Positions 2,078 through 13,263 of a DNA stretch of 30,497 nt are shown here, one piece after another. This DNA is from a virus: positions 1 through 30,497 of IMG/VR virus record IMGVR_UViG_3300030104_004124. One strand, 5' to 3'. Positions within the stretch are counted from its first letter, which is position 1; each line of letters begins with the position of its first letter. A program made the translations under genes and the position numbers. The notes under the pieces were generated by a model, which ran no database searches, had not been told where the DNA came from, and saw only the letters and a list, made by a program, of their open reading frames with translations.

Positions 2078-2156
2078 TAAGGGGGCAGCTAGTTGGATCA
2101 GTGTGAATACACTATGCTATGATCTGTTCTTATCAAGGTTGAAGCGTACCCCCTTA
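2078..2156. other. intergenic element closed by an 8-bp helix
   Basis: TAAGGGGG (2078-2085) is perfectly complementary to CCCCCTTA (2149-2156) and closes a 79-base element that fills almost the whole gap between DUF932 and Nmad1. Inside are a second pairing (GATCA 2096-2100 with TGATC 2120-2124) and a small AGTGT/ACACT hairpin. Read on the minus strand it lies just upstream of the Nmad1 ribosome site. It is not followed by a T-run, so it is not an ordinary terminator. It lacks the T-arm consensus expected of a tRNA. Confidence 0.55.
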
Positions 2157-2162
2157 TAGTTA

Positions 2163-2951
2163 TTATGCTACAGCTTTACACAAGCCATCTACAATTATCT
2201 GATTTTGATTATAAGATGCAACTGTAGGATTCTCTTTATGCCAAAGTATATCTGTTCCAGCATTTAAGAGTTCCCATCCATTGTAGTCTACTTTCTTAGA
2301 TGTATATTTATCAATCAATTGACCCCATAGTCCTACAGGTAAGTCAGATAAATAGGAATGTCTTAATTCAGAAAGCTTTTTCATATCTATATTAAGATTG
2401 TTTAACTTTCTAAGACTAGATATAAATTCATCTATCTTGTAACTTCCATTAGATATATTATTAAGATTAGTAACGATTTGCTGTAAATTCTCATCCCAAT
2501 TCTCAGATGTAGGTTCATGCTTAAATCTATATGTACTGAAATGATCTTTACTCATCATTCCATTAGTGCATACTAATCTAAATAACATTAGAGAATATCC
2601 AAAGGATCTGCTTCCATCATAACTATTCCAGAATTGCATTCCTAAAGCTACATCATCATTAACATCTATACTTCCAACGACTTCAGGTGATCTCATAGAA
2701 TATATATACTGCCTTCCATTAAAGAAAGTTTTATCATGTACAAATTCTATATCACATTCTTCAGCTACTTGCTTCGCAGCTTGTTTTACTTCTTCATTTG
2801 GTAATAACATATAGCTATTCCCAACAACACCACATTCTTTCCAGTCAGCAACCATAGTTGGACTTGGATGGTTCATTTGAACTGCAAATGCAGATGATTT
2901 TACGCCATTATAATCTAATGGTACTTTTCTTATTGGTAAATAAGGGTTCAT
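2163..2951 (-). CDS. DUF932 family protein
   Basis: The 262 residues carry the hallmark centre of the DUF932 phage/plasmid family: FWNSYDGSRSFGYSLMLFRLVCTNGMM at about residues 107-133, followed by a helical C-terminal half. DUF932 proteins are found in many phages and plasmids near recombination genes. Their molecular role is not established. The start overlaps the stop of the 48-residue gene upstream (ATGA), with a GGAGAT ribosome site in front. Length is somewhat short for the family but the core is complete. Confidence 0.75.
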   Translation of the reverse strand: MNPYLPIRKVPLDYNGVKSSAFAVQMNHPSPTMVADWKECGVVGNSYMLLPNEEVKQAAKQVAEECDIEFVHDKTFFNGRQYIYSMRSPEVVGSIDVNDDVALGMQFWNSYDGSRSFGYSLMLFRLVCTNGMMSKDHFSTYRFKHEPTSENWDENLQQIVTNLNNISNGSYKIDEFISSLRKLNNLNIDMKKLSELRHSYLSDLPVGLWGQLIDKYTSKKVDYNGWELLNAGTDILWHKENPTVASYNQNQIIVDGLCKAVA

Positions 2952-3094
2952 GGGATCTCCTTTATTAATTGTTTAATTTTACTTATTTCTTGCTCTAATA
3001 GCTCTATTGTTCGTCTAGTATTTTCTCTAAAAGCATTCATACCTTCTTTCCAATCAGCTTCAGCAGCCATTTTATTTGATCTATCATGTGACAT
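2948..3094 (-). CDS. small coiled-coil protein
   Basis: This 48-residue ORF (MSHDRSNKMAAEADWKEGMN...) starts within the stop of the upstream gene (TGATG) and ends inside the DUF932 start (ATGA), so it exactly fills the gap. The C-terminal half is a heptad-like helix (TIELLEQEISKIKQLIKEI). Tight coupling on both sides and sensible composition support a real gene. Function is unknown. Confidence 0.55.
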   Translation of the reverse strand: MSHDRSNKMAAEADWKEGMNAFRENTRRTIELLEQEISKIKQLIKEIP

Positions 3095-3282
3095 CATCTT
3101 AATTTCTCCCTAAAGATAGCTTTATATCCATCTTCATCAGTTTCTATCACTACCCTTTTATTGATTGCCTTAGAGAGCCGTTCTTTCTCAATAAGTAACC
3201 ATTCAAGAGTAGTGATATATTTGCCTTTAAACCATGTTTCATCTTCAGGATTGAGCCATATTGTTACCTGTATCATATTCAT
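3094..3282 (-). CDS. small hypothetical protein
   Basis: This 62-residue protein (MNMIQVTIWLNPEDETWFKG...) has an alternating strand-helix-strand pattern and a basic C-terminus. The first ATG overlaps the end of the primase-helicase gene; an in-frame ATG two codons later is equally possible because neither has a strong ribosome site. It is probably translated by coupling to the primase-helicase. No family is recognised. Confidence 0.55.
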   Translation of the reverse strand: MNMIQVTIWLNPEDETWFKGKYITTLEWLLIEKERLSKAINKRVVIETDEDGYKAIFREKLR

Positions 3283-5015
3283 CCTATACTTGCTCCATTT
3301 ACGTTAAGTTCTAAGTTTAAGCTTTCTTTTTCTCTATTTGCTGTACATTGAATCTTTAAATACTTGATCAAGTTCTTTTCATCCTTATAAGGAGTTAGAG
3401 ATAAAACTTTATTAGCGTTATAGCCTACACGAAATGAGCCTTTAGCTGATGTAATATCCATACCTTCATGAAATGCTTGCTTTGTTATTTCAGATACTGC
3501 AAATACTACTACATTATTCTGAATCGCAAGTTCCATTAAGGCTTGTGATACTTCTTCTACCTTCATATTGTTATCTGATTTCTGAGATCTAAATAATCCC
3601 ATATGATCAACAACAATTATTTCAGGCTTATATGGTAACATCATTATACGTTTATTTAATTCATGCGCATAACATGGACTATAATCTATGGTTAACCATT
3701 GTTGAAAGTCTTCAGTTATACTCTTAGCATGATCCATATAATGAGCTTTAAGCTCCTCTTCAGACCAACCTTTTTCCATCATTACAAATCTCATCCACAT
3801 CTGCCTAGCAGACATTTCCATCTCTATAAAATATGTTTTTCTTTTGAGCTTATTAACCCAATTTTGTAATAACATAGTTTTCATAGATTTAGGTGGAGCT
3901 TGTAGTATCACAACTTCACCTGGATATATAGGAAAAGATTGATTATAGAATTTACCTATATCTATAGGATCATGGTCTCTTGTGAGAAATTCCATCAACT
4001 CTTTATCCATAGAATTTGCATCCATTAGATTTTGTGACTTCTTTGATTTGTATAATCTACAAGTGGATTGACAATGATTGTCCATATGTGTATCAGTACA
4101 GCCATAGTTATAACCGTTACCATTATGTCCTTCATAGCAATCAGTGACTATCTTATCCATTTCAGACTTATTGAAAGGATGAGATGCCATATCTACTCTT
4201 TGTCGCCAATCCTCCATGATAAGTCTAACAATATGTTCAGGATATCTCCATCTTAAATAGCCTGATATTCTTAAAGCTATTTGATGTCTTGATCCTTGAG
4301 CTGTTCCACTCATCATAGTTTGTATACACGGGTACCAGATAGGGTCTGGGTTTCTACCAAGTGTTACCTCTTCAAACTTCTTATCACTAGCTACAGCTTT
4401 ACGATTCAATACATCAAATACAGGTTCACATTCTAATGTAGTCCACTTATATGTAGATCTTTGAGTTTTTGCTGTTTTCTGTATATTTGTTATTGAATTA
4501 TGTAATTCACTATGTTCTAATGGTATCTTAAAAAGTCCTGACTTACTATTCTTAGTATTAACTACTCTAATAAGTCTTGTTTTATCAGACACAGATACAT
4601 CTGCATATTCATATATACCTCTAGCCTGTAATTCATCTTTAACTTTTAAATGTAAATCAGGTGAGGGGTTCCATCTAAATGCAGATCCAGGTATTCCTAT
4701 ATGAAATCCAGTTCCTGAGAAATAGATTTGATATGGTATACATAAATCATCTAATAATATTGTTAAGCCAATTGCTTTTTGTTTAGCTTTATCGGGGTTC
4801 TCTCCATCGACATCAAGAAGAAATTCATCAGGCATGTATAACATACCATCATATGATGCAAGAGTTCCTTTTTCTTTTACATAGTCAACAACGTGACCAT
4901 CATAATCCCATAAGGACATAAAAGTATCTTGCTCCATACCTATCCACTTCTCTACATCTTGAACATCACCAAAATGGTGTCTATTAGACAAGCCAAATGC
5001 GTATTCTTTTATCAT
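3279..5015 (-). CDS. primase-helicase: AEP primase, PriL-like Fe-S domain and RecA-like helicase fused
   Basis: This is the central replication protein (578 residues). The N-terminal third looks like an archaeo-eukaryotic primase. It has the metal-binding LLDVDGE (Asp68, Asp70), the FSGTGFHIG motif (His105) and the RLIRVVNTKNSKSGLFKIP nucleotide-binding strand (147-165). Residues about 226-322 resemble the C-terminal part of archaeal/eukaryotic PriL: a YPCIQTMMSG start, a SRHQIALRISGYL helix and Cys230, 306, 315 and 319 as possible Fe-S ligands. The C-terminal third is a RecA/DnaB-like ATPase with Walker A APPKSMKT (373-380) and Walker B IIVVD (466-470). The protein would prime and unwind DNA at the fork. 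The ribosome site AAGGAGATAAA before the ATG is strong. The primase and helicase calls are firm; the Fe-S assignment is inferred from Cys spacing. Confidence 0.8.
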   Translation of the reverse strand: MIKEYAFGLSNRHHFGDVQDVEKWIGMEQDTFMSLWDYDGHVVDYVKEKGTLASYDGMLYMPDEFLLDVDGENPDKAKQKAIGLTILLDDLCIPYQIYFSGTGFHIGIPGSAFRWNPSPDLHLKVKDELQARGIYEYADVSVSDKTRLIRVVNTKNSKSGLFKIPLEHSELHNSITNIQKTAKTQRSTYKWTTLECEPVFDVLNRKAVASDKKFEEVTLGRNPDPIWYPCIQTMMSGTAQGSRHQIALRISGYLRWRYPEHIVRLIMEDWRQRVDMASHPFNKSEMDKIVTDCYEGHNGNGYNYGCTDTHMDNHCQSTCRLYKSKKSQNLMDANSMDKELMEFLTRDHDPIDIGKFYNQSFPIYPGEVVILQAPPKSMKTMLLQNWVNKLKRKTYFIEMEMSARQMWMRFVMMEKGWSEEELKAHYMDHAKSITEDFQQWLTIDYSPCYAHELNKRIMMLPYKPEIIVVDHMGLFRSQKSDNNMKVEEVSQALMELAIQNNVVVFAVSEITKQAFHEGMDITSAKGSFRVGYNANKVLSLTPYKDEKNLIKYLKIQCTANREKESLNLELNVNGASIG

Positions 5016-5024
5016 TTTATCTCC

Positions 5025-5318
5025 TTATAGAGCGTATTTCCAACAATAATTTGATTTTCCATATTTTCCTTTTCTTTTAGTTGAAGTTTTTTCTAATGCT
5101 TCTATTTCTGTTAGGTTGCTTATGGATCTTCTAACTGATGTTATTGGATAGTCTTTATCATAATCATTTTTAAGAATATTCTGTATGTCAAATGGTGTAA
5201 ATGTCATATCTTTATTTCTTGCAAATAATAATAATACTATTTCATCTTGCTTTGCTGTCTCAACCCAAGAGCATTTAAGCTCTTCTCCTGATTGATTTGT
5301 TGTATTGTAAAACGTCAT
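5025..5318 (-). CDS. winged-helix-like DNA-binding protein
   Basis: In this 97-residue protein the centre (KQDEIVLLLFARNKDMTFTP, then ITSVRRSISNLTEIEALEK) follows the pattern of a winged helix: a first helix, a turn, a recognition helix with the SVRRSISNL signature, and a wing containing a Lys/Gly-rich hairpin (TKRKGKYGKSNYC). Similar small proteins next to phage helicases can act as replication initiators or loaders, or as regulators. It ends nine bases before the primase-helicase start and overlaps the upstream gene by four bases (ATGA), so it is co-expressed with the replication genes. The fold call is from pattern only. Confidence 0.6.
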   Translation of the reverse strand: MTFYNTTNQSGEELKCSWVETAKQDEIVLLLFARNKDMTFTPFDIQNILKNDYDKDYPITSVRRSISNLTEIEALEKTSTKRKGKYGKSNYCWKYAL

Positions 5319-5488
5319 GATTTGTCTCCTAAAAATTTCCTACATCTATTTACGAGTATTTCTTCAGCTTCTGTTAAGTCACTATCCATGTATTCAACCC
5401 ACATTTTTAACAATTCAGTAGCATATTCTAGCCTACTTAAAGCTCTATATAGTTCATTTGCTATTTCTTTTGATACTTCAGTTGCCAT
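5315..5488 (-). CDS. small acidic helical protein
   Basis: This 57-residue ORF begins MATEVSKEIANELYRALSRL and is predicted to be almost entirely helical. A clear GGAGAT ribosome site precedes the ATG at 5488, and the stop overlaps the winged-helix start (ATGA). The structured element at 5506-5588 sits directly upstream of its ribosome site. No family is recognised. Confidence 0.6.
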   Translation of the reverse strand: MATEVSKEIANELYRALSRLEYATELLKMWVEYMDSDLTEAEEILVNRCRKFLGDKS

Positions 5489-5505
5489 AATATCTCCAAA
5501 TTAAA

Positions 5506-5588
5506 TGAGAGAGACCACGCTCTAGGTTGGGCTAGCCTTTAAGATTATCCCCTATTAACGAATGGTGGTTTTAGCCGTAACTCTCTCA
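5506..5588. other. intergenic element closed by an 8-bp helix
   Basis: TGAGAGAG (5506-5513) pairs perfectly with CTCTCTCA (5581-5588) and closes an 83-base element filling the gap between two minus-strand genes. The interior holds GC-rich pieces (AGGTTGGGCTAGCC at 5525-5537). On the minus strand the 3' arm is followed at once by the ribosome site of the 57-residue gene. The 7-8 bp closing helix and the length recall a tRNA, but I find no T-loop or anticodon arm on either strand. Confidence 0.55.
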
Positions 5589-5594
5589 ATTGGT

Positions 5595-5873
5595 TTACTT
5601 AAGAGTTAATACATTCTTAGAAGCAGTCTTAGATGTAGTTGTTTGCATCTTTGCAGCTTCAAGCTTAACTTTAGTAATAGATATAAGGTTATTACATATT
5701 TTGCTTATAGCACTAGCTTCCTGTGTAGTAAATCTTCCATCTTGATAGATTAAAGATCGTAACACAGTAGAAACATCTGAACCCATCTCATCAACGCCAT
5801 TGTATGCTAAAGGCTTTATTACTCTTTTAGTTGTAGTTTTAGGCCTACCTGCCTTCTTTGTTGTTTTACTCAT
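5595..5873 (-). CDS. basic hypothetical protein
   Basis: The N-terminus of this 92-residue protein is strongly basic (KKAGRPKTTTKR, with a GRP core reminiscent of an AT-hook). A helical middle follows (TTQEASAISKICNNLISITKVKLEAAK) and then a Thr/Ser/Lys-rich tail. An AGGAGA ribosome site lies upstream. It sits between the SSB-like protein and the replication genes, so a DNA-binding accessory role is plausible but not shown. Confidence 0.6.
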   Translation of the reverse strand: MSKTTKKAGRPKTTTKRVIKPLAYNGVDEMGSDVSTVLRSLIYQDGRFTTQEASAISKICNNLISITKVKLEAAKMQTTTSKTASKNVLTLK

Positions 5874-5886
5874 TACTTCTCCTTGA

Positions 5887-6426
5887 TTAAAATATTGGAG
5901 CAGGACTACTTTCTGTAGGTGCTTCAGTATTTGTTGGTTGTTTTGCTAAAAATGCGTCTAAGCCTTTCTTAATACCAGCCTGTAATACTGCTACTTCTTC
6001 AGCAGTAAAAGATAAATGCTCTCCTTGCTGCTCAACTGGAGCAAACATATCATGCATTCTAGTATATCCTTTTCCAGTCTTCTTTTCTTTATAGAATAAG
6101 ACATTAATTTTCTTTGAAACTAAGTTCTCTGCTTCATCATCATACTGAATTACTGGATGCTTACCACTAGGATCATTAAGAACTCCCATAATACCTGCGT
6201 TTGCATTCTTGAACAAGCTAGATATTTTAAATTCTTGATTATCTTTCTTTGTAAAAGCTTCATATACTCTTAAATCCATATTATCAGGATATCCTTCAAA
6301 TGTAAGAGTTATTATTTTCTTACCTGCGCTTTCACCATACTCAGCAGTTTTAATAGTTAATTCATGCCAACCTTCAGCAAACTTATCATTGCCACCACTA
6401 CTTACAGACATTGTTTTTACAGCCAT
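5887..6426 (-). CDS. probable single-stranded DNA-binding protein
   Basis: The first 125 of 179 residues look like a beta-rich OB-type domain (GWHELTIKTAEYGESAGKKI, then TLTFEGYPDNMDLRVYEAF). The linker is rich in Gln/Pro/Thr/Ser and the protein ends in PAPIF, an aromatic C-terminal tip as in SSB proteins. It lies directly downstream of the ERF annealing gene, where phages commonly place their SSB. It would coat ssDNA during replication and recombination. The call rests on domain style, tail and neighbours rather than on a diagnostic motif. Confidence 0.6.
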   Translation of the reverse strand: MAVKTMSVSSGGNDKFAEGWHELTIKTAEYGESAGKKIITLTFEGYPDNMDLRVYEAFTKKDNQEFKISSLFKNANAGIMGVLNDPSGKHPVIQYDDEAENLVSKKINVLFYKEKKTGKGYTRMHDMFAPVEQQGEHLSFTAEEVAVLQAGIKKGLDAFLAKQPTNTEAPTESSPAPIF

Positions 6427-6436
6427 TATTTACTCC

Positions 6437-6919
6437 TTATTTATTAGTTGTTAAACCTTTTTTATTTGATGCCAAATTACCATCATCATCATATTGTGAT
6501 ATACCTGCTATTGCAGACAAGCCATATCTACGACCATATGTAATAGTAGAGCCAATACTTTGAGCAGTAGCTTTTTCTATAGGCATTCTAAGTTTTGATT
6601 TTATCCATTGCCCAGATTCATGTAATAACATTGTAGTCACATAAAACTCTCCAGGCTTTTCGCCATCATTTCCCTGTATAACTGCTATACCATGCTTATT
6701 TAAATAAGGTACAGATGCTTCTATTACAGTATGTAAGTCAGCATAACCAGAGTTAAAGAAAGGATTAGTAGATTTCTTTTCTGCACCTTTCATTTCTGAT
6801 TGAGCTTTACATAGAGCAACTGCTAACTTGTCTAAATTATCTGACATTAGAACAGTAGGACTTTCTATAACAGGGGATTCTTGGGGGACAGCATTCCCGT
6901 TGGGAACATTCTCTTCCAT
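6437..6919 (-). CDS. erf: ERF-family single-strand annealing protein
   Basis: The 160 residues match the ERF superfamily closely. Helix ALCKAQSEMKG (36-46) leads into STNPFFNSGYADLHTVI (50-66), followed by the LNKHGIAV strand, LLHESGQWI, the conserved MPIEKATAQSIGSTITYGRRYGL stretch and DDDGN near residue 147. ERF proteins anneal complementary single strands and drive phage recombination and genome circularisation. The first 25 residues are Pro/Ser-rich and variable. The AAAAGGAG ribosome site is good. It is the first recognisable gene after the promoter at 7103-7132, ahead of SSB and the primase-helicase. Confidence 0.85.
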   Translation of the reverse strand: MEENVPNGNAVPQESPVIESPTVLMSDNLDKLAVALCKAQSEMKGAEKKSTNPFFNSGYADLHTVIEASVPYLNKHGIAVIQGNDGEKPGEFYVTTMLLHESGQWIKSKLRMPIEKATAQSIGSTITYGRRYGLSAIAGISQYDDDGNLASNKKGLTTNK

Positions 6920-6941
6920 TGTTACTCCTTTTATTTTATAT

Positions 6942-7097
6942 TTATTGGTTTCTCAGCTGTTTCCGCTTAATGAGTTCAAGCAATCTCTTTTTTATTCTTG
7001 TTATAAACTTATGAGAGCGTGATTCATTCAATGAACGTAAATAAAGCTCTACATACGACTTAATAACTGTATCTTCTAGATTTGACTCACTAACCAT
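6942..7097 (-). CDS. small basic protein, possibly from a leaderless start
   Basis: This 51-residue ORF (MVSESNLEDTVIKSYVELYL...) ends in a strongly basic helix (ITRIKKRLLELIKRKQLR). The frame can be extended upstream to a GTG at 7124, but that lies inside the promoter. The ATG at 7097 falls about where transcription from the 7103-7132 promoter should begin, and neither start has a ribosome site. If the gene is real, it is probably read from a leaderless mRNA. It is the first ORF of the ERF operon. Confidence 0.45.
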   Translation of the reverse strand: MVSESNLEDTVIKSYVELYLRSLNESRSHKFITRIKKRLLELIKRKQLRNQ

Positions 7098-7102
7098 TAG
7101 CA

Positions 7103-7132
7103 AATATAATGTGACGAATATCACATTGACAA
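7103..7132 (-). promoter_or_regulatory. sigma-70-type promoter with a palindromic operator filling the spacer
   Basis: On the minus strand TTGTCA (-35, 7132-7127) and TATATT (-10, 7108-7103) are separated by exactly 18 bases, and those bases are the palindrome ATGTGA-N6-TCACAT (7109-7126). The hexamers match consensus at 5 of 6 positions each. The palindrome also matches the CRP/FNR-family half-site pattern TGTGA-N6-TCACA. A protein bound there would block RNA polymerase, so repression is the simplest reading. It would control the small ORF at 6942, ERF, SSB and the downstream replication genes. Confidence 0.65.
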
Positions 7133-7133
7133 G

Positions 7134-7173
7134 AAAATAATAGGGGAAATTTGATATAATCTAATCTCCCCTA
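7134..7173 (-). terminator. hairpin terminator-like element before the ERF promoter
   Basis: On the minus strand TAGGGGA (7173-7167) pairs with TCCCCTA (7147-7141) across a 19-base AT-rich loop and is followed by TTATTTTC. It sits after the stop of the 74-residue gene and just before the 7103-7132 promoter, where it would separate the right-hand and left-hand early transcripts. The T-rich tail is interrupted, so termination may be partial. The stem also resembles the closing helices of the other intergenic elements. Confidence 0.5.
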
Positions 7174-7183
7174 CATCCTCCAA

Positions 7184-7408
7184 CTAACTAAAAGTAAGAT
7201 TTGCTTCAGTACTAATAGTTTTTAATTGATCAGCAATGGCTATAATTTCTTCAAAACTATAGTGAAAGTCATGAAATTGAACAGTATTTTCTTCAAGTTC
7301 AATAGTTACAGACTCTTTTTGCCTAACAGCTATAGTAGATCTGTCAAGCGTACTAGGTTTTGGATCAATTATAGTTAACTTATCCTTACTTATGTCATCA
7401 TTCTTCAT
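7184..7408 (-). CDS. small acidic hypothetical protein
   Basis: From the ATG at 7408 (MKNDDISKDKLTIIDPKPST...) the protein has 74 residues. A GGAG site lies seven bases upstream and the start overlaps the previous gene by 11 bases. A TTG seven codons earlier would also work but overlaps more. The C-terminal half (VTIELEENTVQFHDFHYSFEE) is beta-then-helix. It is the last gene before the terminator-like hairpin at 7134-7173. No family is recognised. Confidence 0.55.
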   Translation of the reverse strand: MKNDDISKDKLTIIDPKPSTLDRSTIAVRQKESVTIELEENTVQFHDFHYSFEEIIAIADQLKTISTEANLTFS

Positions 7409-7547
7409 CTTTAATCTCCGTGATTTCAATTCCTAAGTCAGCTGCATTTTGCAAAGTTTTACTTCCCATGATAATTTCTTTAACATGAGTTTCATCTTCT
7501 GCATTTACTTCTATTGGATATGAGAGTACTACCTTATACTTTCTCAT
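7398..7547 (-). CDS. small hypothetical protein
   Basis: This 49-residue ORF (MRKYKVVLSYPIEVNAEDE...) starts inside the stop of the DUF6745-like gene (ATGA) and ends 11 bases inside the next gene. The pattern is strand-helix-strand with a long helix (ETHVKEIIMGSKTLQNAADL). It looks like the small 'hypothetical' phage proteins that begin with a RKYKV strand. Coupling and composition support it. Confidence 0.55.
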   Translation of the reverse strand: MRKYKVVLSYPIEVNAEDETHVKEIIMGSKTLQNAADLGIEITEIKDEE

Positions 7548-8662
7548 TTCAATACTATTGGAATAACATAATCATCACTATCTCCACTTCTACCATCACC
7601 TATCCAGTTTGAGCCAGATTTAATTGATGAATCTCCATCACGCCAAGTTAAAGCTGCTTTTACAGTTGCTTGTTTTAATCTGAGACCCCAACCTCCACTG
7701 TCTACATTAGGAACACCTTCAAAATGACTTTCTCCTGTAGAAGGATTAATCATTTCTAGATATAAACCTTTATAAGTACTATCTGCAAGACTAGTATCAG
7801 AGAAATCAGGAATAGTAACATCTAATAGCTTATAATATCTGCCATCAATAGTATCTTCATCAACAACATCATAATCTAATTTTTCAATTATAGTATTCAT
7901 ACCATAATGTTCAATTATATTACTTCTTAATGTTGCATTACGATGTCTAAATACATCTTCTACAGGTATTTTAGACCAATCCATTTGAGCCATGTTAAGA
8001 GCCACTTCAGCTTCATCAACATTCCATCTTCTAGCTAACTCAGTATCACCGCCTGCATCTTTATATCTTTTAAGAGCTGCAGAATTTTCTTTATTAGCTA
8101 TATAATTACGCTTTCTTTGAACTTTATCTCGTTCTTTAGCTTTATTATACTCTTTAATAGAATGTTTAGGTGTCTTTTGTATTACTTTAGCTGTTTTAAG
8201 ATCCATTTTCATACCATTCCAAGGAGTTAAGCTAATGTTATGATCTTTTACTTCAAGAAAATATGCACATCTGCAATACCTTATTTTCATAGTATGCTTT
8301 CTACAACAGACACCCTGTCTCATTAACTGTTTAACATCTTCAGCAGTAGATCTATAAAACCATGAACTTGCTCTATCATAATGTAAAGAATTATATTCAA
8401 TAACATAACCTCTAATAGTTGCAATTCTAGACCCTTCTTGCGTACCATGATCGTATTGATTATATACTTTAAACACTTCAACTTTATTTTTAGCGACTTT
8501 TGTAAATACATATATACTATATCTATCACCAGTTTCACCTTTGAAGAATACAGATTGATTTTTTACACCAAATTCAATAAGATATTCAACTTCTTTATTA
8601 TTTAGATATTGAGGCATATATTCTTTAAAATGATCATTATTATGATGATTAATCTGCAACAT
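7544..8662 (-). CDS. DUF6745-like protein of unknown function
   Basis: The N-terminal half of this 372-residue protein is a mixed domain with Cys-rich spots (CCRKH, YCRCAYF near residues 119-133) and a basic linker (KERDKVQRKRNY). The C-terminal half carries GMNTIIEKLDYDVVDEDTIDGRYYKL, then LYLEMINPSTGESHFEGVP and TVKAALTWRDGD. I associate this 'NPST.E.H.EGVP ... ALTWR.G' pattern with DUF6745-type proteins of bacteria and phages, usually next to a short 'QGDV' protein like the one encoded immediately upstream. Their function is not known to me. The two genes overlap by 14 bases, implying joint action. The family name is tentative; the pairing is seen. Confidence 0.55.
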   Translation of the reverse strand: MLQINHHNNDHFKEYMPQYLNNKEVEYLIEFGVKNQSVFFKGETGDRYSIYVFTKVAKNKVEVFKVYNQYDHGTQEGSRIATIRGYVIEYNSLHYDRASSWFYRSTAEDVKQLMRQGVCCRKHTMKIRYCRCAYFLEVKDHNISLTPWNGMKMDLKTAKVIQKTPKHSIKEYNKAKERDKVQRKRNYIANKENSAALKRYKDAGGDTELARRWNVDEAEVALNMAQMDWSKIPVEDVFRHRNATLRSNIIEHYGMNTIIEKLDYDVVDEDTIDGRYYKLLDVTIPDFSDTSLADSTYKGLYLEMINPSTGESHFEGVPNVDSGGWGLRLKQATVKAALTWRDGDSSIKSGSNWIGDGRSGDSDDYVIPIVLK

Positions 8663-9053
8663 ATTGGGCTCTCCTTGTTATATGGTTAAATTCTCTTACA
8701 ATTCTTACAACATAGTTACCTGGAGGTAATACCACATCATCATGTTCTTCATGTATTAAAGTTACATCTGCACCTTCAACACTGAATGATTTAGGTATAT
8801 CTTTACCTGCAGTATCTCGACTAGACATATGCAATGTTACACCAGCTTCTTTAAGCATATCATTCATTTCAACTCTATGAGTATGTCCAGTTACTTCACC
8901 AAATGCTAATATAGCTCTAGTTCCTGTTTTACCTACATATTTAGTACAATGTTCACTTGAGCTTGCAAATTTAGCAAAATGACCATCATCAACTCTATAC
9001 ATAACAACATCACCTTGTTGATATTTAGTATACGTTACTTTTTCTTTTGACAT
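8649..9053 (-). CDS. 'QGDV' partner protein of the DUF6745-like gene
   Basis: The 134 residues are mostly beta. YQQGDVVMYRV (11-21), a long loop, GEVTGHTHRVE (52-62) with two His, DVTLIHEEHDDVVLPPGNYVVRIVREF (96-122), then a short Arg-rich end. The His-rich GHTHR and HEEH motifs could bind a metal. Proteins of this layout commonly accompany DUF6745-type proteins. Start is ATG 9053; the upstream gene overlaps it by 19 bases and the downstream start lies inside its end, so translation is coupled on both sides. Enzymatic role unknown. Confidence 0.55.
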   Translation of the reverse strand: MSKEKVTYTKYQQGDVVMYRVDDGHFAKFASSSEHCTKYVGKTGTRAILAFGEVTGHTHRVEMNDMLKEAGVTLHMSSRDTAGKDIPKSFSVEGADVTLIHEEHDDVVLPPGNYVVRIVREFNHITRRAQYVAD

Positions 9054-9214
9054 TTCTTTACTCCTTTTTTAATTACTTTTACAGTTAGTTGTCCTTCTCT
9101 TTCGAGCATTTCTTCTAGACGGCATTGTGTCCAGAACTCTTCTTCAGCATGACCATTATACAAATTAGAATCAAGCTTTTCTCTTTCTTCAAGATATCTT
9201 TTCATTTTACCCAT
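9035..9214 (-). CDS. small helical protein
   Basis: This 59-residue ORF (MGKMKRYLEEREKLDSNLYN...) is preceded by a strong GAGGAGG ribosome site and rich in Glu, Lys and Arg. The middle EEEFWTQCRLEEMLEREG looks like one amphipathic helix and the tail is basic (KKGVKKCQKKK). It overlaps the zinc-ribbon gene upstream by eight bases and the QGDV gene downstream by 19. No family is recognised. Confidence 0.6.
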   Translation of the reverse strand: MGKMKRYLEEREKLDSNLYNGHAEEEFWTQCRLEEMLEREGQLTVKVIKKGVKKCQKKK

Positions 9215-9329
9215 TGTCTTCCTCCTCTATAAACAAAGCTCCTCTCCCACATTTAGAACAATAGCCTATATTATCAGTCATTTCATAAGAGGGTGGCCAT
9301 CCACAACAATTACTTATCGGATCTTCCAT
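9207..9329 (-). CDS. tiny zinc-ribbon protein
   Basis: The 40-residue protein has CCGWPP at residues 8-13 and CSKCG at 24-28, a knuckle arrangement seen in many very small phage proteins. Ribosome site GGAGA lies before ATG 9329, and the stop overlaps the next start. It probably binds one zinc ion. The role is unknown; such proteins are often missed because of their size. Confidence 0.6.
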   Translation of the reverse strand: MEDPISNCCGWPPSYEMTDNIGYCSKCGRGALFIEEEDNG

Positions 9330-9347
9330 ATATATCTCCTTTATTAA

Positions 9348-9590
9348 TTACATTATATGATCTCTTGTATAGGGCATACCAAATTTAAATTTAGTATCTT
9401 TTAAAGATAGGCCTGAAGGTGTATATCCCCAAGCATGGCCTATGTATAAAAAAGGTAAGAATATTCTAATTTGACCAATACATTCTTGATCATCATTATT
9501 ACGATCATAAAATCCATCAATACCAAATAATATTTTGCTTTTAACTATAAGATATGCATCAATACTCCATATTCTATCTAATATTTTCAT
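9348..9590 (-). CDS. hypothetical protein
   Basis: The 80-residue protein (MKILDRIWSIDAYLIVKSKILFG...) has a hydrophobic N-terminal half with aromatic residues and no clear transmembrane segment. A short IGHAWGYTPSG segment is followed by a basic, strand-like end. The AAGGAGATATAG ribosome site lies inside the end of the upstream gene. No family is recognised. Confidence 0.55.
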   Translation of the reverse strand: MKILDRIWSIDAYLIVKSKILFGIDGFYDRNNDDQECIGQIRIFLPFLYIGHAWGYTPSGLSLKDTKFKFGMPYTRDHIM

Positions 9591-9753
9591 CTATATCTCC
9601 TTTATCTATTTTAAGTAATTTATACCAAACTGGGCCTGTTACTTTATTACCTAGCCTTATAACTTTAGCATTTTCTATAATATCATATAGTTTCTCAGTT
9701 AAAGCTCTTTGCTTTTCCATCTTTTTTATAATCTTTTTAATCTTCTCTTGCAT
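9574..9753 (-). CDS. small basic protein
   Basis: This 59-residue ORF begins MQEKIKKIIKKMEKQRALTE, a basic amphipathic helix, followed by a short strand region (NKVTGPVWYKLLKI). TAGGAG lies seven bases before the ATG, and the last 17 bases overlap the next gene. It is the first gene after the two stem elements at 9773-9889. No family is recognised. Confidence 0.6.
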   Translation of the reverse strand: MQEKIKKIIKKMEKQRALTEKLYDIIENAKVIRLGNKVTGPVWYKLLKIDKGDIDENIR

Positions 9754-9772
9754 TTATACTCCTATAATATTT

Positions 9773-9889
9773 GGAGGGAAATTATACTGCTTACGTTTCT
9801 CGGTGTCCACAGTCTCCAATTAATCTCCCTCCGCCATTTAGGCTAATCTAACCCTTAGAGAGGAAATTATTATTTCCATAGATTAGTCC
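9773..9889. other. two adjacent stem elements (60 and 49 bases)
   Basis: Element one is 9773-9832: GGAGGGA and TCCCTCC form a perfect 7-bp closing helix. Element two is 9841-9889: CTAATCTA (9843-9850) pairs with TAGATTAG (9879-9886), extended by GG/CC with one bulged base, and encloses a 6-bp hairpin GGAAAT/ATTTCC (9862-9877). Together they fill the gap between two minus-strand genes. The interior of element one, read on the minus strand, shares a CGTAAGCA word and nearby GGAC/GAG words with the element at 10527-10610. Confidence 0.5.
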
Positions 9890-9894
9890 CAAAA

Positions 9895-10089
9895 TTAGTC
9901 ACAACTATTACTACTAACCCATCTAGCTATACCATTTATATATGTAAATGATCCAAAACCATAACCTGCAGGATGATAACCTGCCTTCTCTTGCAAAAGC
10001 ATAGCACCATCCTCGGTTATCTCACCAACATATTCAAAATCTATAACATTATTTTCATAATCCTTTTTATACAACAGTTTCTTCTCCAT
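9895..10089 (-). CDS. small hypothetical protein
   Basis: The 64-residue protein begins MEKKLLYKKDYENNVIDFEY and contains a Gly-rich centre (AGYHPAGYGFGSF) and C-terminal NGIARWVSSNS. The short beta-strand pattern suggests a compact domain. A CAGGAGATAT ribosome site lies inside the end of the 39-residue gene, which it overlaps by 23 bases. No family is recognised. Confidence 0.6.
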   Translation of the reverse strand: MEKKLLYKKDYENNVIDFEYVGEITEDGAMLLQEKAGYHPAGYGFGSFTYINGIARWVSSNSCD

Positions 10090-10186
10090 ATATCTCCTGT
10101 ATCATATCGTTAATTGCTATATCTTTAGCGTATTTCTCTTGCACTTCTTCAGAAATGCACATTTCATCTAGTGTTGGAAGAGTCAT
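10067..10186 (-). CDS. very small acidic protein
   Basis: This 39-residue ORF begins MTLPTLDEMCISEEVQEKYA. ATAAGGAGA lies five bases before the ATG at 10186 and the stop falls inside the next gene. The 16 bases covering its ribosome site are repeated exactly before the 59-residue membrane gene at 11719-11898. It is the first gene after the non-coding block at 10187-10644. Confidence 0.5.
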   Translation of the reverse strand: MTLPTLDEMCISEEVQEKYAKDIAINDMIQEIYGEETVV

Positions 10187-10644
10187 TCATTCTCCTTATG
10201 TTGGTTGTTGTTAGTGAAATTTATGCCACAGCAGGTCTAGACAATGCATAAGCTATGGCAATGGTTATCAGATCTATGTGTGGTCTAGAAATTCCACCGA
10301 ATGCTTAGATAACCATATCAAACAGGGATTTTACACTTAATATTGGGACGTGATTTAGCTAATCAAGATCTACCAAGCTCAATACAGAGGTGTTATGATT
10401 GATATATTTAATTTTGTGGAGCTCATCTGGTGCTATTCATGATTATCCAGTTTTCCCAGTTTCGACACTGCAGCTACGTTGGTTTTATCTCCCTGTTTAC
10501 TGTTGCTCCTTGGTAACCAATTTATTGGGGAGAGTTAGCAGACACTTTTGCCTTGCTTACGCTCCCTCGTCCTGAAATCATGGGGAAGTAACCTCGAAGT
10601 TAGACTCCCCCTATCGTAGTATAGTTATTATGAATGGACTTATA
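10187..10644. other. 458-base non-coding block with several helices
   Basis: No ORF with a ribosome site is seen on either strand. Visible complementary pairs are TGCCA 10224-10228 with TGGCA 10256-10260; a perfect 9-bp ATGGTTATC 10261-10269 with GATAACCAT 10308-10316; a TTGGT-A-ACCAA hairpin at 10510-10520; and GGGGAG 10527-10532 with CTCCCC 10605-10610. The last encloses about 70 bases. The block is therefore probably structured RNA or regulatory DNA rather than a decayed gene. No canonical tRNA was found in it. Confidence 0.5.
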
Positions 10645-11010
10645 CTACAATTTCTTAAGAGCACGCTTTAGTTTAAGCGCTTCTCTTGTAAATTTGACAA
10701 GATCATCAGTTATATCCTCAGGCTTGAGAGTGGTTGATTTTTTAGTTAATAATGAGCGTATATACATATCACTCATCTCATCACGATGCCTTTGAGATCT
10801 TTTTCTATTAGTCTCTCTTTGCTGTGGATCTTTTACAAATCTATCTCTTTGCCTAGCAAGATATCTAGCCATATTATTATACCTCCAAGCATCAGTCTTT
10901 GCATTATCACATGTTTTACACAAAGATCTTATCTTAGACTTTTTACTATTATCTTTATAAAACATACTAGTATCTTTAGTTGTCTTACATTTGTTACAAA
11001 ACTTATCCAT
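10645..11010 (-). CDS. zinc-finger protein with a basic helical region
   Basis: Residues 5-8 (CNKC) and 31-34 (CKTC) of this 121-residue protein form a two-knuckle zinc site, with SMFYKDNSKKSKIRSL between them. The rest is a long, very basic helix (RYLARQRDRF, RKRSQRHRDEM) and a helical tail. Phage HNH endonucleases often begin with this kind of Cys module, but no HNH catalytic core follows here, so DNA or RNA binding without cutting is more likely. TTGGAGG precedes the ATG. The structured element 11021-11087 sits just upstream. Confidence 0.6.
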   Translation of the reverse strand: MDKFCNKCKTTKDTSMFYKDNSKKSKIRSLCKTCDNAKTDAWRYNNMARYLARQRDRFVKDPQQRETNRKRSQRHRDEMSDMYIRSLLTKKSTTLKPEDITDDLVKFTREALKLKRALKKL

Positions 11011-11020
11011 AATACCTCCA

Positions 11021-11087
11021 ATAATAACAAGGGAATTGCTTAAGCAAAATGAGGTTTAGCAAGAAAACCTAACAACCCCCTTATTAT
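11021..11087. other. branched stem element upstream of the zinc-finger gene
   Basis: ATAATA..AGGG (11021-11033, one three-base bulge) can pair with CCCTTATTAT (11078-11087). It encloses a 12-base palindrome TTGCTTAAGCAA (11036-11047) and a perfect 6-bp hairpin AGGTTT/AAACCT (11052-11070). This gives a compact branched structure filling the space between the secreted protein and the zinc-finger gene. On the minus strand its 3' arm is followed by a GGAGG ribosome site. Confidence 0.5.
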
Positions 11088-11102
11088 CTGTCATAGTATA
11101 AA

Positions 11103-11582
11103 TTAATCAAATAACCCTAAGTCTACTGTATTACCAGTTGTATTTGGATTATCACAAGACTCTATATACTCTCTGTGGTCTCCAAGACCATCGCCATCTT
11201 TGTCTCTCCACCAGGTTATCTTTCCAGGGCCATTACATACTCCACAAATGTCACGCCTGTTATAATAACAGTCATCATCTGCATCATCATTGTTTAATAC
11301 CCATTGCATCTTATCATTAGACGATCCTGAGTGCATTACTACAAACTCATCTACTGTCTCTGCTAGATTAGTGCTATATAAGCTACCATTCCACCAGAAT
11401 GTACGACCTTCTCCTTTAGCACGATGCTCTATTGCAAATGCTTCATCAAAGGTCATATCATCTAAGTCAAGTACTATTGGTGTTTCATTCTTTACCACTA
11501 CATACTTACCTAGCTTGCTTTCTGCTTCTACTTCGCCACAACATACTAATAATAGTATTACTATTGACATTGTCATTCTCAT
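11103..11582 (-). CDS. secreted protein with a thrombospondin-type-3-like calcium loop
   Basis: The first 20 of 159 residues form a signal sequence (MRMTMSIVILLLVCCGEVEA), cut after VEA by signal peptidase I or possibly processed as a lipoprotein at the Cys pair. A middle domain holds TFDEAFAIEHRAKGEGRTFWWNG. The end is DICGVCNGPG, WWRDKDGDGLGDHREYI and a final Cys. DKDGDGLGD is a calcium-binding loop of the thrombospondin type 3 kind, and 'CGVCNG' modules are common in secreted proteins of marine bacteria. It would act outside the cytoplasm, which is unusual within a DNA-replication block. A host-acquired surface or exclusion factor is the best guess. Confidence 0.65.
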   Translation of the reverse strand: MRMTMSIVILLLVCCGEVEAESKLGKYVVVKNETPIVLDLDDMTFDEAFAIEHRAKGEGRTFWWNGSLYSTNLAETVDEFVVMHSGSSNDKMQWVLNNDDADDDCYYNRRDICGVCNGPGKITWWRDKDGDGLGDHREYIESCDNPNTTGNTVDLGLFD

Positions 11583-11605
11583 TGGTGATTCTCCTTATTT
11601 ATTAT

Positions 11606-11719
11606 TTAATATTTCCAGTACCACATGTAACACTCTTCTGCTACACGTATAAATGCGTATAACATGATGGCTATTGACACCATGTATATAAACACTGCAG
11701 TCCAATTTATCTTGTACAT
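11606..11719 (-). CDS. tiny single-pass membrane protein
   Basis: This 37-residue ORF (MYKINWTAVFIYMVSIAIML...) contains one hydrophobic helix at about residues 7-25 and ends in an aromatic tail (CYMWYWKY). Its ATG overlaps the stop of the other membrane gene as TAATG. Together with that gene and the secreted protein it forms a small envelope-directed cluster. Confidence 0.5.
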   Translation of the reverse strand: MYKINWTAVFIYMVSIAIMLYAFIRVAEECYMWYWKY

Positions 11720-11898
11720 TACATTACTCCTTTATATGCTAGTATAAACAAACATATTGCTGTAGATATGGCTATATTCATAAAGAATAGATATATGAAC
11801 CCCATTGGAGCTCTCTCTTCCTCTGTGAACAACCATTCCTCAACAACTATTGCTTTCTTTGCTAGCCACCTTAATGGTAGTGTTAGTGATTTTATCAT
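11719..11898 (-). CDS. small membrane protein
   Basis: This 59-residue ORF begins with a basic amphipathic segment (MIKSLTLPLRWLAKKA), has an acidic middle (EEWLFTEEE) and one hydrophobic helix at about residues 33-53 (GFIYLFFMNIAISTAICLFI). ATAAGGAG precedes the ATG at 11898. Its leader shares 16 identical bases with the leader at 10192-10207. Function is unknown; a membrane role early in infection is inferred. Confidence 0.55.
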   Translation of the reverse strand: MIKSLTLPLRWLAKKAIVVEEWLFTEEERAPMGFIYLFFMNIAISTAICLFILAYKGVM

Positions 11899-12157
11899 TA
11901 TTGCTCCTTATGTTGGTTGAGTTAATAAGAGAGTAGTCTTCAACACCGTTGATCAGCACCCGGTACTGTATTCCCCTGTCTGAACCCCAATTCAAACTAC
12001 TCTCTTAAATTATACATAGTAGAGGTGAAGTTGGGTTTCGCCATCATACAAGGCTCCGTTCCCTTTCGCTTGCCAGCTAATCGTTCACTACCAAGTATTT
12101 TTACCTCTTACAGGGTTTAACCTGATTCCTTACCCACAAAAAGACTATGTAATGGTA

Positions 12158-12249
12158 ACGAGCTATGGATTTGCACCATACTTTAAGAATGGACAGGCCA
12201 TCTCAACTTTACTCGAGTTAGTGAGAATTAAATCCCCCAAACAGCTCGT
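12158..12249 (-). ncRNA. tRNA-like element with T-arm
   Basis: On the minus strand ACGAGCT...AGCTCGT closes the element. A perfect 5-bp arm TATGG/CCATA with a seven-base loop TGCAAAT (12180-12164) lies directly before the 3' closing strand, exactly where a tRNA T-arm would be. A four-bp arm ATGG/CCAT with a five-base loop sits where a long variable arm would be. No anticodon arm with a normal seven-base loop and U33 can be drawn. It is therefore called tRNA-like, not a tRNA; it may be a decayed or specialised tRNA. Confidence 0.35.
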
Positions 12250-12269
12250 GTTAGTATTATAAGACAGTC

Positions 12270-12286
12270 CCCTGACTTGAACAGGG
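12270..12286 (-). ncRNA. isolated T-arm-like hairpin
   Basis: On the minus strand CCCTG-TTCAAGT-CAGGG is a perfect five-bp stem with a seven-base loop beginning TTCAA, the tRNA T-loop signature. GACTGTC follows it, where a 3' acceptor strand would be. Upstream, spacing allows a D-like CATC/GATG arm and a 17-base anticodon-arm segment with loop CTAATAA, but two of five anticodon-stem pairs and part of the acceptor mismatch. It may be a broken tRNA. Confidence 0.3.
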
Positions 12287-12410
12287 TGTGTGATAATTAT
12301 TAGACAACTCATCAGTGTTCAGCAGATGTTAACCTATCTATATTGTTACTTACCTGTTGTCAAACTAGTATTCTCATCACAGAGCTATACGAAGACTATC
12401 TTAATTGTTG

Positions 12411-12483
12411 TTGCGGTGACAGGAGTCGAACCTGCTATCTTATGGTTATGAGCCACACGTGTAAACCGTTTCACTCCACCGCT
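12411..12483 (-). tRNA. tRNA with CAU anticodon (Met, or Ile2)
   Basis: The minus strand folds as a cloverleaf. The acceptor is AGCGGTG/CACCGCA with the last pair A1-A72 unpaired. A three-bp D-arm carries a GG-containing loop. The anticodon arm TGTGG-CTCATAA-CCATA gives anticodon CAU. The variable loop has five bases, and the T-arm is GCAGG-TTCGACT-CCTGT. Discriminator A is followed by CAA, so CCA would be added by the host. The unpaired 1-72 position is an initiator feature, but the three stacked G-C pairs of initiator anticodon stems are missing. Position 8 is G rather than U. Elongator Met or lysidine-modified Ile2 are the alternatives. Confidence 0.8.
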
Positions 12484-12691
12484 ATAGAATTGTTTGATAG
12501 GTAGCCTAGCACTAAGGGGAAGCCTAGTACAACGTGGTTCATTACTCCACTATAGACCACCATATCAGGTCGAAGAGGTATTACCCTCTCAAGTTGTTGT
12601 TTGGTATAAGTTGGTATATATATCTCACACACACGCACACAGTAGATGGTAATGTATAATACTAAGGGGACACGTTAATGCCCCCATAATA

Positions 12692-12955
12692 CTACGATCT
12701 CCAAAGGTTTACTTGAAACTCTGCCTTTGCCTCACCTAACCTGTCCAACATCTGCTGCAATCTATTCATTGGATCCTTCCACTTACGTACTACACATAAC
12801 TTCATAAGCATCTTGATGTCAGCCTCAGCACGGTTGATCTTGTTACGCTTGTTAACCATAGCTTCAGTAGCTTCAATAGCTTGTACTTCTAACTCAGGTA
12901 CTGCATTCATTGCTTGGGTCTCATCTTTTACATCTTCTAAGTATAACATATACAT
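12692..12955 (-). CDS. helical hypothetical protein, first gene of the early block
   Basis: The protein has 87 residues from the ATG at 12955, or 85 from an ATG two codons later that is better spaced from the GGAGAT site. It is almost wholly helical (LEVQAIEATEAMVNKRNKINRAEADIK; NRLQQMLDRLGEAKAEF), probably a coiled-coil dimer. It is followed by the hairpin at 12666-12685. No family is recognised. Its place nearest the divergent control region means it would be transcribed first. Confidence 0.6.
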   Translation of the reverse strand: MYMLYLEDVKDETQAMNAVPELEVQAIEATEAMVNKRNKINRAEADIKMLMKLCVVRKWKDPMNRLQQMLDRLGEAKAEFQVNLWRS

Positions 12956-13024
12956 ATCTCCATTAATTAATATTTAAAATCAATTGAAAATAATCAAATC
13001 AAAAATAACTAAAAAGTGATAACT

Positions 13025-13041
13025 AAAAACCCTATTTAGGG
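13025..13041 (-). terminator. weak minus-strand terminator
   Basis: Read on the minus strand, CCCTA-AA-TAGGG (13041-13030) is followed directly by TTTTT (13029-13025), the layout of a rho-independent terminator. The stem has only five pairs and a two-base loop, so strength is doubtful. It would stop minus-strand transcripts coming from the control region before the early block's own promoter. Confidence 0.35.
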
Positions 13042-13117
13042 GTACACCATTGTATAAAACACCACATACCAAAATCCTATAATTTTTGAAACTTTTTTCA
13101 TTTTATTCTAATTTCCT

Positions 13118-13145
13118 TTGCATATACTATTAACAATGGTATATT
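13118..13145 (+). promoter_or_regulatory. extended -10 promoter for the late operon
   Basis: TTGCAT (13118-13123) and TATATT (13140-13145) are 16 bases apart, and TGG directly precedes the -10 hexamer, giving the extended TGn motif that can compensate for a weak -35. Expected initiation near 13151-13153 coincides with the first bases of the closed-helix element at 13150-13263, so the transcript would begin with that structure. The -35 matches only three of six consensus bases. Confidence 0.45.
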
Positions 13146-13149
13146 ACTA

Positions 13150-13263
13150 TATCGGTAGTGTAATGCTATCACCCAGATAGTACCCCTGTGTAGGTTCTGC
13201 TAAATGGGTCAGACGTTGGGTTGCCCCATCATATAGATGTAAGGATTCCCCCGATAACCGATA
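13150..13263. other. 114-base leader element closed by a 7-bp helix
   Basis: TATCGGT (13150-13156) pairs perfectly with ACCGATA (13257-13263). Inside are the hairpin CTATC-ACCCA-GATAG (13167-13181) and, at 13215-13233, a 19-base motif that matches 17 of 19 bases with 12030-12048 in the same orientation. On the + strand the element starts where the promoter at 13118-13145 should initiate and is followed by six A residues. It could be a 5' leader RNA of the late operon; minus-strand transcription is not excluded. Confidence 0.5.

Follow-up and report, generated by a model that had tools for sequence, protein, structure and literature searches.

What fills the gaps between the early genes of a phage where those gaps encode no protein? 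We address this question for a stretch of 30,497 nucleotides (nt), here called the window, which covers positions 1 to 30,497 of the incomplete IMG/VR virus record IMGVR_UViG_3300030104_004124, from an uncultivated marine phage lineage. An original prediction had listed ten gap segments with complementary ends and had taken them for one family of functional RNAs, neither classic terminators nor canonical transfer RNAs (tRNAs). All ten segments are present with their complementary terminal arms, and covariation between relatives, a sense-strand G-U bias and the lack of any Rfam match besides tRNA in the window and its close relatives agree with the functional part of that claim; the sites, however, hold several unrelated RNAs. 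The early-gap RNAs are modular, with conserved carrier cores behind exchangeable closing helices and with payload hairpins in their apices.

Compensatory change in self-closed RNAs of the early gaps

Almost no similarity exists between the elements of one genome, and the idea of a common family was rejected. Because the sites are not homologous, the arm sequences that differ from site to site within the window, which had been read as pairing kept under changing sequence, are no evidence of covariation; valid evidence has to come from homologous sites in relatives. We therefore rely on related loci (L numbers below), 80 of which were fetched from 190 candidate IMG/VR stretches that encode a relative of the window's helicase. 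Compensatory arm changes in related phages, the check that the original prediction had called for, are seen in the six families A, B, F1, F3, G and I, and by this measure B, A, G, I and F1 are conserved structured RNAs. Positions of elements refer to the minus strand of the window unless the plus strand is named.

Family B (5506-5588) is closed by the outer helix P1 (GAGAGAG/CUCUCUC) and carries the core UUACGGCUAAAACCACCAUUCGUUAA...AGCGUGGU, an inner helix P2 (ACCAC/GUGGU) and a variable apical payload. Collected by its inner core alone, it occurs in 37 contigs; among 31 aligned members 95.6% of the P1 cells are paired, and both-sided changes are found at 5 of 8 pairs as compared with 2.5 in column shuffles, while the inner helix never varies. 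As B, like the payload M1 described below, was gathered by exact-pattern scans, its core may look more invariant than it is; a search of 1.66 Mb with a covariance model turned up no diverged B cores other than one 20-bit match in two overlapping loci. Family I, which is absent from the window and was likewise collected by its inner core, has 17-20 of 21 members paired at outer pairs 7 to 10, where column independence would give 10-12, with nine G-U and no A-C combinations; in L397 its GAGAGCC/GGCUCUC is replaced by AGGGGGC/GCCCCCU. Family F1 (11926-12007; P1 AAGAGAG-UAGU/ACUA-CUCUCUU, core GUUUGAAUUGG...GUUGAAG, variable payload) has its inner five closing pairs formed in 11 of 11 members, with both sides changed. 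These three sets were chosen without any helix filter.

Family A (2078-2156; P1 AAGGGGG/CCCCCUU, core UACGCUUC...AUAGCU) adjoins, on the upstream side, the ribosome site of gene 1709-2059. Its 16 aligned members, found by synteny and then by motif, keep pairing in 191 of 192 cells, a count that is partly circular because members were filtered for the closing helix; those of L012 and L061 came by synteny, outside the filter. The filter answers to a search pattern that, for A as for F1, was too loose for collection, so that most matches were due to chance and were removed by the closing helix (A) or by a fuller core (F1). Across the members the closing helix is exchanged (AAGGGGGU, GAGCAGGU, GAGUAGGU, GAGCAAAU, AAGGGGAG), AAGGGGG/CCCCCUU giving way to GAGCAGG/CCUGCUC, GAGUAGG/CCUACUC or GAGCAAA/UUUGCUC with UACGCUUC and AUAGCU unchanged.

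Two further elements combine a closing helix with an arm resembling that of a tRNA, each compared in four sequences. F3 (12158-12249) joins an acceptor-like ACGAGCU/AGCUCGU, which becomes GCAAGCU/AGCUUGC in L004, to an adjacent T-arm-like UAUGG-UGCAAAU-CCAUA; its core is found in 8 contigs around a variable middle that is about 30 nt shorter in L012. F4 (12260-12403), which the ten-site list had missed, so that the list proved real in its sites and incomplete, is closed by 10 base pairs (bp; UAAGAUAGUC/GACUGUCUUA). Its T-arm-like CCCUG-UUCAAGU-CAGGG changes to UCAUG-UGCAAAU-CAUGA, and its inner helix GUGAU/AUCAC to AUAAU/AUUAU (L006) and AAUAU/AUAUU (L009). A comparable replacement is seen in family D1 (9773-9832), whose core GGAYACCGAGAAACG is also present in L002, L009 and L012 and whose inner hairpin, ACUG[UGGACACCGAGAAACGUAAG]CAGU within a closing helix of 12 bp, exchanges ACUG/CAGU for ACGCU/AGCGU in L012.

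The helices also stand out against shuffled controls, though not at every site. When the longest closing helix of each window gap was scored against 100 dinucleotide shuffles of that gap, none of the shuffles matched the 12 bp of D1, the 14 bp of F1 or the 18 bp (G-U pairs included) of element E (11023-11088); the 10-bp helices of A and of element C (7140-7174) were exceptional at p 0.01 and p 0.04, the 8 bp of B were borderline (p 0.07), and F3 and 13150-13263 did not have the best helix of their gaps. Where a gap holds two elements (9754-9894 and 11899-12160) the best helix alone was scored, which leaves D2 (9841-9889) and F2 (12021-12108) outside the test. On the minus, or sense, strand the two ends of a segment pair and close it in nine of the ten listed cases, and for gaps with a single element the minimum-energy z scores are lower there than on the plus strand (-3.9 vs -1.5 at 7125-7183, -3.4 vs -1.6 at 11011-11102, -2.4 vs -1.2 at 2060-2162). 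The pattern extends to the related loci: in 228 non-redundant early-operon gaps of 50-200 nt from the 80 loci, delimited by a simple open-reading-frame script so that some may hold missed small genes, 29% have a helix above all 30 dinucleotide shuffles where about 3% would be expected. Among the 88 strongest helices, the sense score exceeds the antisense score in 60 and falls below it in 8, a strand difference that G-U pairs require. Purines make up 64% of the 5' arms of these helices, and the 3' arms end a median of 20 nt before the next start codon.

Exchangeable positions and nested payloads

The elements move as units. Family B occupies different junctions in different phages, always co-directional with the flanking genes and tightly fitted, about 5-6 nt past a stop codon and about 17-23 nt ahead of the next start; in L004 it also stands in arrays beside tRNA-Met. 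Family A keeps its usual junction in many relatives, lies at another in L025 and forms a tandem with B in L101, and the order of F1 to F4 differs among the window, L004, L006 and L009. The apex of B varies from 2 to 63 nt in relatives and is nearly empty (2 nt) in L012, L099, L104 and L108.

Elsewhere the apex houses a second module. The payload M1 (AGCCUCAUGGGCAAGUCCCRUGGACRA) occurs in at least seven carriers: B (L070, L082), I (L072, L074, L390, L397, L398), J (L391, L394) and at least four more (L051/L073, L388, L392, L396). A script that demanded a strict outer helix around M1 overlooked true members in which that helix is offset. The payload has a helix of its own, CAUGGG/CCCRUG, which becomes CAAGGG/CCCUUG in L036 with pairing kept. 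A second payload, M6, is carried by F1 (L003), I (L051, L401), J (L400) and one further carrier (L399), and in the F1 of L003 the modules M5 and M6 are nested. Copies are single per locus for B (43/43), M1 (20/20) and I (31/32, one locus having two), numbers that are lower bounds per genome because many related loci are fragments.

These observations place several uncatalogued families of structured RNA in a single marine phage lineage, where their parts are swapped and nested much as domains are. If the interpretation is right, RNA modules could evolve by shuffling as protein domains do, and early phage operons could carry RNA cargo besides proteins; the invariant cores are short and well delimited, and so suited to in vitro work.

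Known classes and possible roles

At the Rfam 15 gathering threshold, the window, 15 near relatives and 29 further loci matched tRNA only, plus one tmRNA-like (transfer-messenger RNA-like) match in L099, and no Rfam ribozyme, riboswitch, GOLLD or ROOL was matched in the window and related loci. Nor was an HDV-like (hepatitis delta virus-like) ribozyme matched at that threshold, although theta ribozymes may lie outside the coverage of Rfam. In the window, ARAGORN and Rfam RF00005 find a sole tRNA (12411-12483). The B core occurs neither in 84,980 bacterial and archaeal genomes nor in cultured phages, the latter matching the RNA region of the window at the tRNA only, and a literature search that did not take in most subscription papers returned no description of such early-gap elements. 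Multi-copy repeats of the REP, BOX or ERIC type were not found either, there being almost no within-genome gap similarity and single copies of B and M1 per locus.

The tmRNA-like match deserves separate mention. L086 (3050-3127, plus strand) and L099 (7692-7768, minus strand) each hold a tRNA domain of 77-78 nt with G3-U70, a D-analogue and a T-arm. Each is oriented as B is, and the one in L086 begins a few bases past a B element. The match in L099 did not recur in a scan of its stretch by itself, the sequence being GGGGCUGAAUGGUUUCGA...GUGAGUUCGAUUCUCACCAGCUCCA. Both are tRNA-like with the G3-U70 pair and have no room for a tag region, so that they are not tmRNAs; it is possible that they are phage-borne mini-tmRNA decoys.

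We suggest that the early gaps hold self-closed RNA modules that would fold independently and be transcribed as part of the leftward mRNA. The outer helix, exchangeable and with a purine-rich 5' arm, would seal the module off from this mRNA, usually ending no more than about 20 nt from the next start codon; the carrier core would lie just inside it, conserved in many families (A, B, F1, I), and the variable apex would leave room for another closed-helix module such as M1, M5 or M6. With each part closed by a helix, modules could be moved between junctions, arrayed beside tRNA genes and nested without upsetting their neighbours. In this arrangement the outer helix would punctuate the polycistronic early mRNA at cistron borders and stabilize or insulate it, whereas cores and payloads would be bound by factors of host or phage and would work in any transcript that contains them. 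All relatives in which the gap upstream of gene 5315-5488 was inspected have a closed hairpin there, with unrelated sequences, which argues for a cis role at that junction; single copies, independence of context and the tRNA- and tmRNA-like domains point to factor-binding motifs, which may act in trans. For the combined statement, early-mRNA punctuation by the outer helix together with context-independent factor-binding motifs, we would put the probability at about one half on the sequence comparisons given here; it overlaps with its rivals, and the likelihoods we attach to them need not sum to one.

Several observations weigh against this combination. A single copy per genome argues against purely generic punctuation, for which reuse of one element would be expected. 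For elements C, D2, E and F2 the case comes from shuffles or from few relatives, with little or no comparative support past near-identical ones. Finally, at least five T within the next 8 nt follow 14 of the 88 strong helices (about 16%, against a background of 6%), and some strong closing helices are probably terminators.

As a general answer, intrinsic terminators were rejected. That the elements are terminators or attenuators with enlarged loops has in its favour strong stems past stop codons, these 14 T-rich tails, and a hairpin with a U-tract at one shared junction in L011, L013 and L020; yet the U-tract is missing in 84% of the strong helices and likewise in A, B, D1, E and F1 of the window, the loops span 20-100 nt with conserved cores, the elements stand in tandem arrays and a ribosome site follows at once, all of which makes this account improbable. 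Closer to our own proposal, and only somewhat behind it, is the tentative notion of a combinatorial library in this lineage: self-closed RNA modules, each made of an outer helix, a carrier core and a nested payload, would recombine in the manner of protein domains and might act early in infection against the host RNA machinery, as binders, mimics or ribozymes, either in trans or on any mRNA of which they are part. A little more doubtful is a role as trans-acting small RNAs, released by processing of the early transcript as tRNAs are, that would mimic host factors for RNA handling or defence, serve as decoys for them or regulate them, with carriers and payloads as separate binding motifs under arms-race turnover. 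One copy per family and genome, context-independent placement, arrays with tRNA-Met, patchy presence, invariant cores with an unconstrained periphery, the T-arm-like domains of F3 and F4 and the tmRNA-like domain in two relatives, in L086 directly after B, would all suit such RNAs; many elements, however, are plain hairpins (C, D2), the junction with a hairpin in every lineage seen suggests a role in cis, and no promoter belonging to the elements themselves was found, although no search aimed at one was made.

The pattern of small ribozymes is also one of invariant unpaired nucleotides together with covarying helices and free loops at the periphery, a pseudoknot can be drawn for B (UUACG with CG-U-UAA across ACCAC/GUGGU), and the elements lie between unrelated genes. 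We nevertheless consider it unlikely that the conserved cores act at cistron borders to cut the polycistronic RNA, as new self-cleaving ribozymes, or to protect it, as nuclease-resistant folds, since no Rfam ribozyme matches at gathering scores, no cleavage-site signature was identified and the proposed pseudoknot is invariant and so offers no covariation to judge it by. Least credible is that the repeats are functionless recombination debris, hairpins copied between phages by template switching. Fast turnover, nesting and hypervariable apices might suggest it, but selection is needed to account for compensatory changes and invariant cores among phages with helicases up to about 33% different, debris at the DNA level would not be expected to show the sense-strand bias in G-U pairs, and the covariation already contradicts it.

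Neighbouring elements, the phage lineage and known systems

The remaining gap elements of the window are simpler. Element C is a plain hairpin between genes 7184-7429 and 6942-7124, with a homologue in L002/L003 and different closed hairpins at the equivalent junction of L004, L005, L009, L012 and L013. D2 is a hairpin, CUAAUCUA/UAGAUUAG, with a homologue in L002/L003 only; E lies upstream of the ribosome site of gene 10645-11010 and had no homologue among the first 81 related loci. F2 (closing arms AAGAGGU/ACCUCU) has homologues in L003, L006 and L009, the last two at about 74% identity, with the closing helix unchanged in all. The tRNA-Met (CAU; 12411-12483) sits in the middle of the RNA array and is also found in L003, L004, L006, L009, L012 and L025. 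Nearby, a minus-strand hairpin at 12666-12685 (GGGGGCAUUAACGUGUCCCC) with a conserved loop follows directly on the stop of gene 12692-12955, is kept in at least nine relatives and is possibly a protein-binding site. A minus-strand stretch of 555 nt without an evident gene (10090-10644) is conserved in L002/L003 and partly in L004, L009 and L006, and has no exceptional helix.

Element G (13150-13263, plus strand) stands apart. It lies a few bases downstream of a conserved TATATT box and is conserved in 57 contigs. Its plus-strand consensus has 28 pairs, 13 of them double-changed, at -22.4 kcal/mol; the minus strand, with 17 pairs, 9 double-changed and -14.6 kcal/mol, is much poorer, and that reading was rejected. 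G reads as the leader RNA of the rightward operon, distinct from the early-gap elements, so that of the leader RNAs that had been suggested for the sites this one holds, on the plus strand, and the others do not fit. A put-type leader is a cis-acting, promoter-proximal structured RNA that lets RNA polymerase pass terminators; G, whose position and conserved structure fit this type, is a candidate. Just before G, the divergent intergenic region contains an inverted repeat at 13043-13143 (TATACCATTGT / ACAATGGTGTA on the minus strand), which may frame two putative promoters.

Genes in the left 13 kb of the window point leftward and include those for a primase-helicase (3279-5015) and an Erf-like annealing protein (6437-6919), besides many small ones; to their right, terminase, portal, head and tail genes run rightward. 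The protein of 3279-5015 (minus strand) is a DnaB-like helicase whose N-terminal part matches primases, including Thermus phage ones annotated as eukaryotic-type primase small subunit. Its relatives are common in marine IMG/VR contigs and nearly absent from cultured phages, which give weak matches, and it has no relative among the 84,980 bacterial and archaeal genomes. Mosaicism is strong: L078 and the window share 89% DNA identity over 2163-3097, 69% over the helicase and 82% over 6437-6953.

Among known systems, the tRNA cluster of T4 contains the stable RNAs C and D, phage small RNAs next to tRNAs; the elements here resemble them, by description rather than sequence, as small stable phage RNAs beside tRNAs, and we know of no module nesting or swapping in T4. 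BOX, REP/BIME and ERIC elements are intergenic transcribed stem-loops at cistron borders, present in many copies with conserved termini, BOX being modular; in contrast, the present elements usually occur once per genome and have variable termini around conserved inner cores. The domains of L086 and L099, outside the window, share the acceptor G3-U70, D-analogue and T-arm of the tRNA-like domain of tmRNA, but lack its tag frame and pseudoknots. HDV-like theta ribozymes of gut phages are small structured RNAs in phage tRNA neighbourhoods (PMC10879173); HDV-like folds are nested double pseudoknots, whereas here the 5' and 3' ends pair in one nested helix at protein-gene junctions. GOLLD and ROOL are single ornate phage RNAs of about 660-800 nt or more near tRNA genes, GOLLD with conserved and variable regions, and the marine GOLLD env-38 lies downstream of a Met-tRNA (PMC12286853). 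The likeness is that of phage-encoded structured RNAs near tRNA genes (PMC12286853); the RNAs described here differ in giving no Rfam match to either and in being at least ten separate closed modules of 33-144 nt, mostly set between protein genes.

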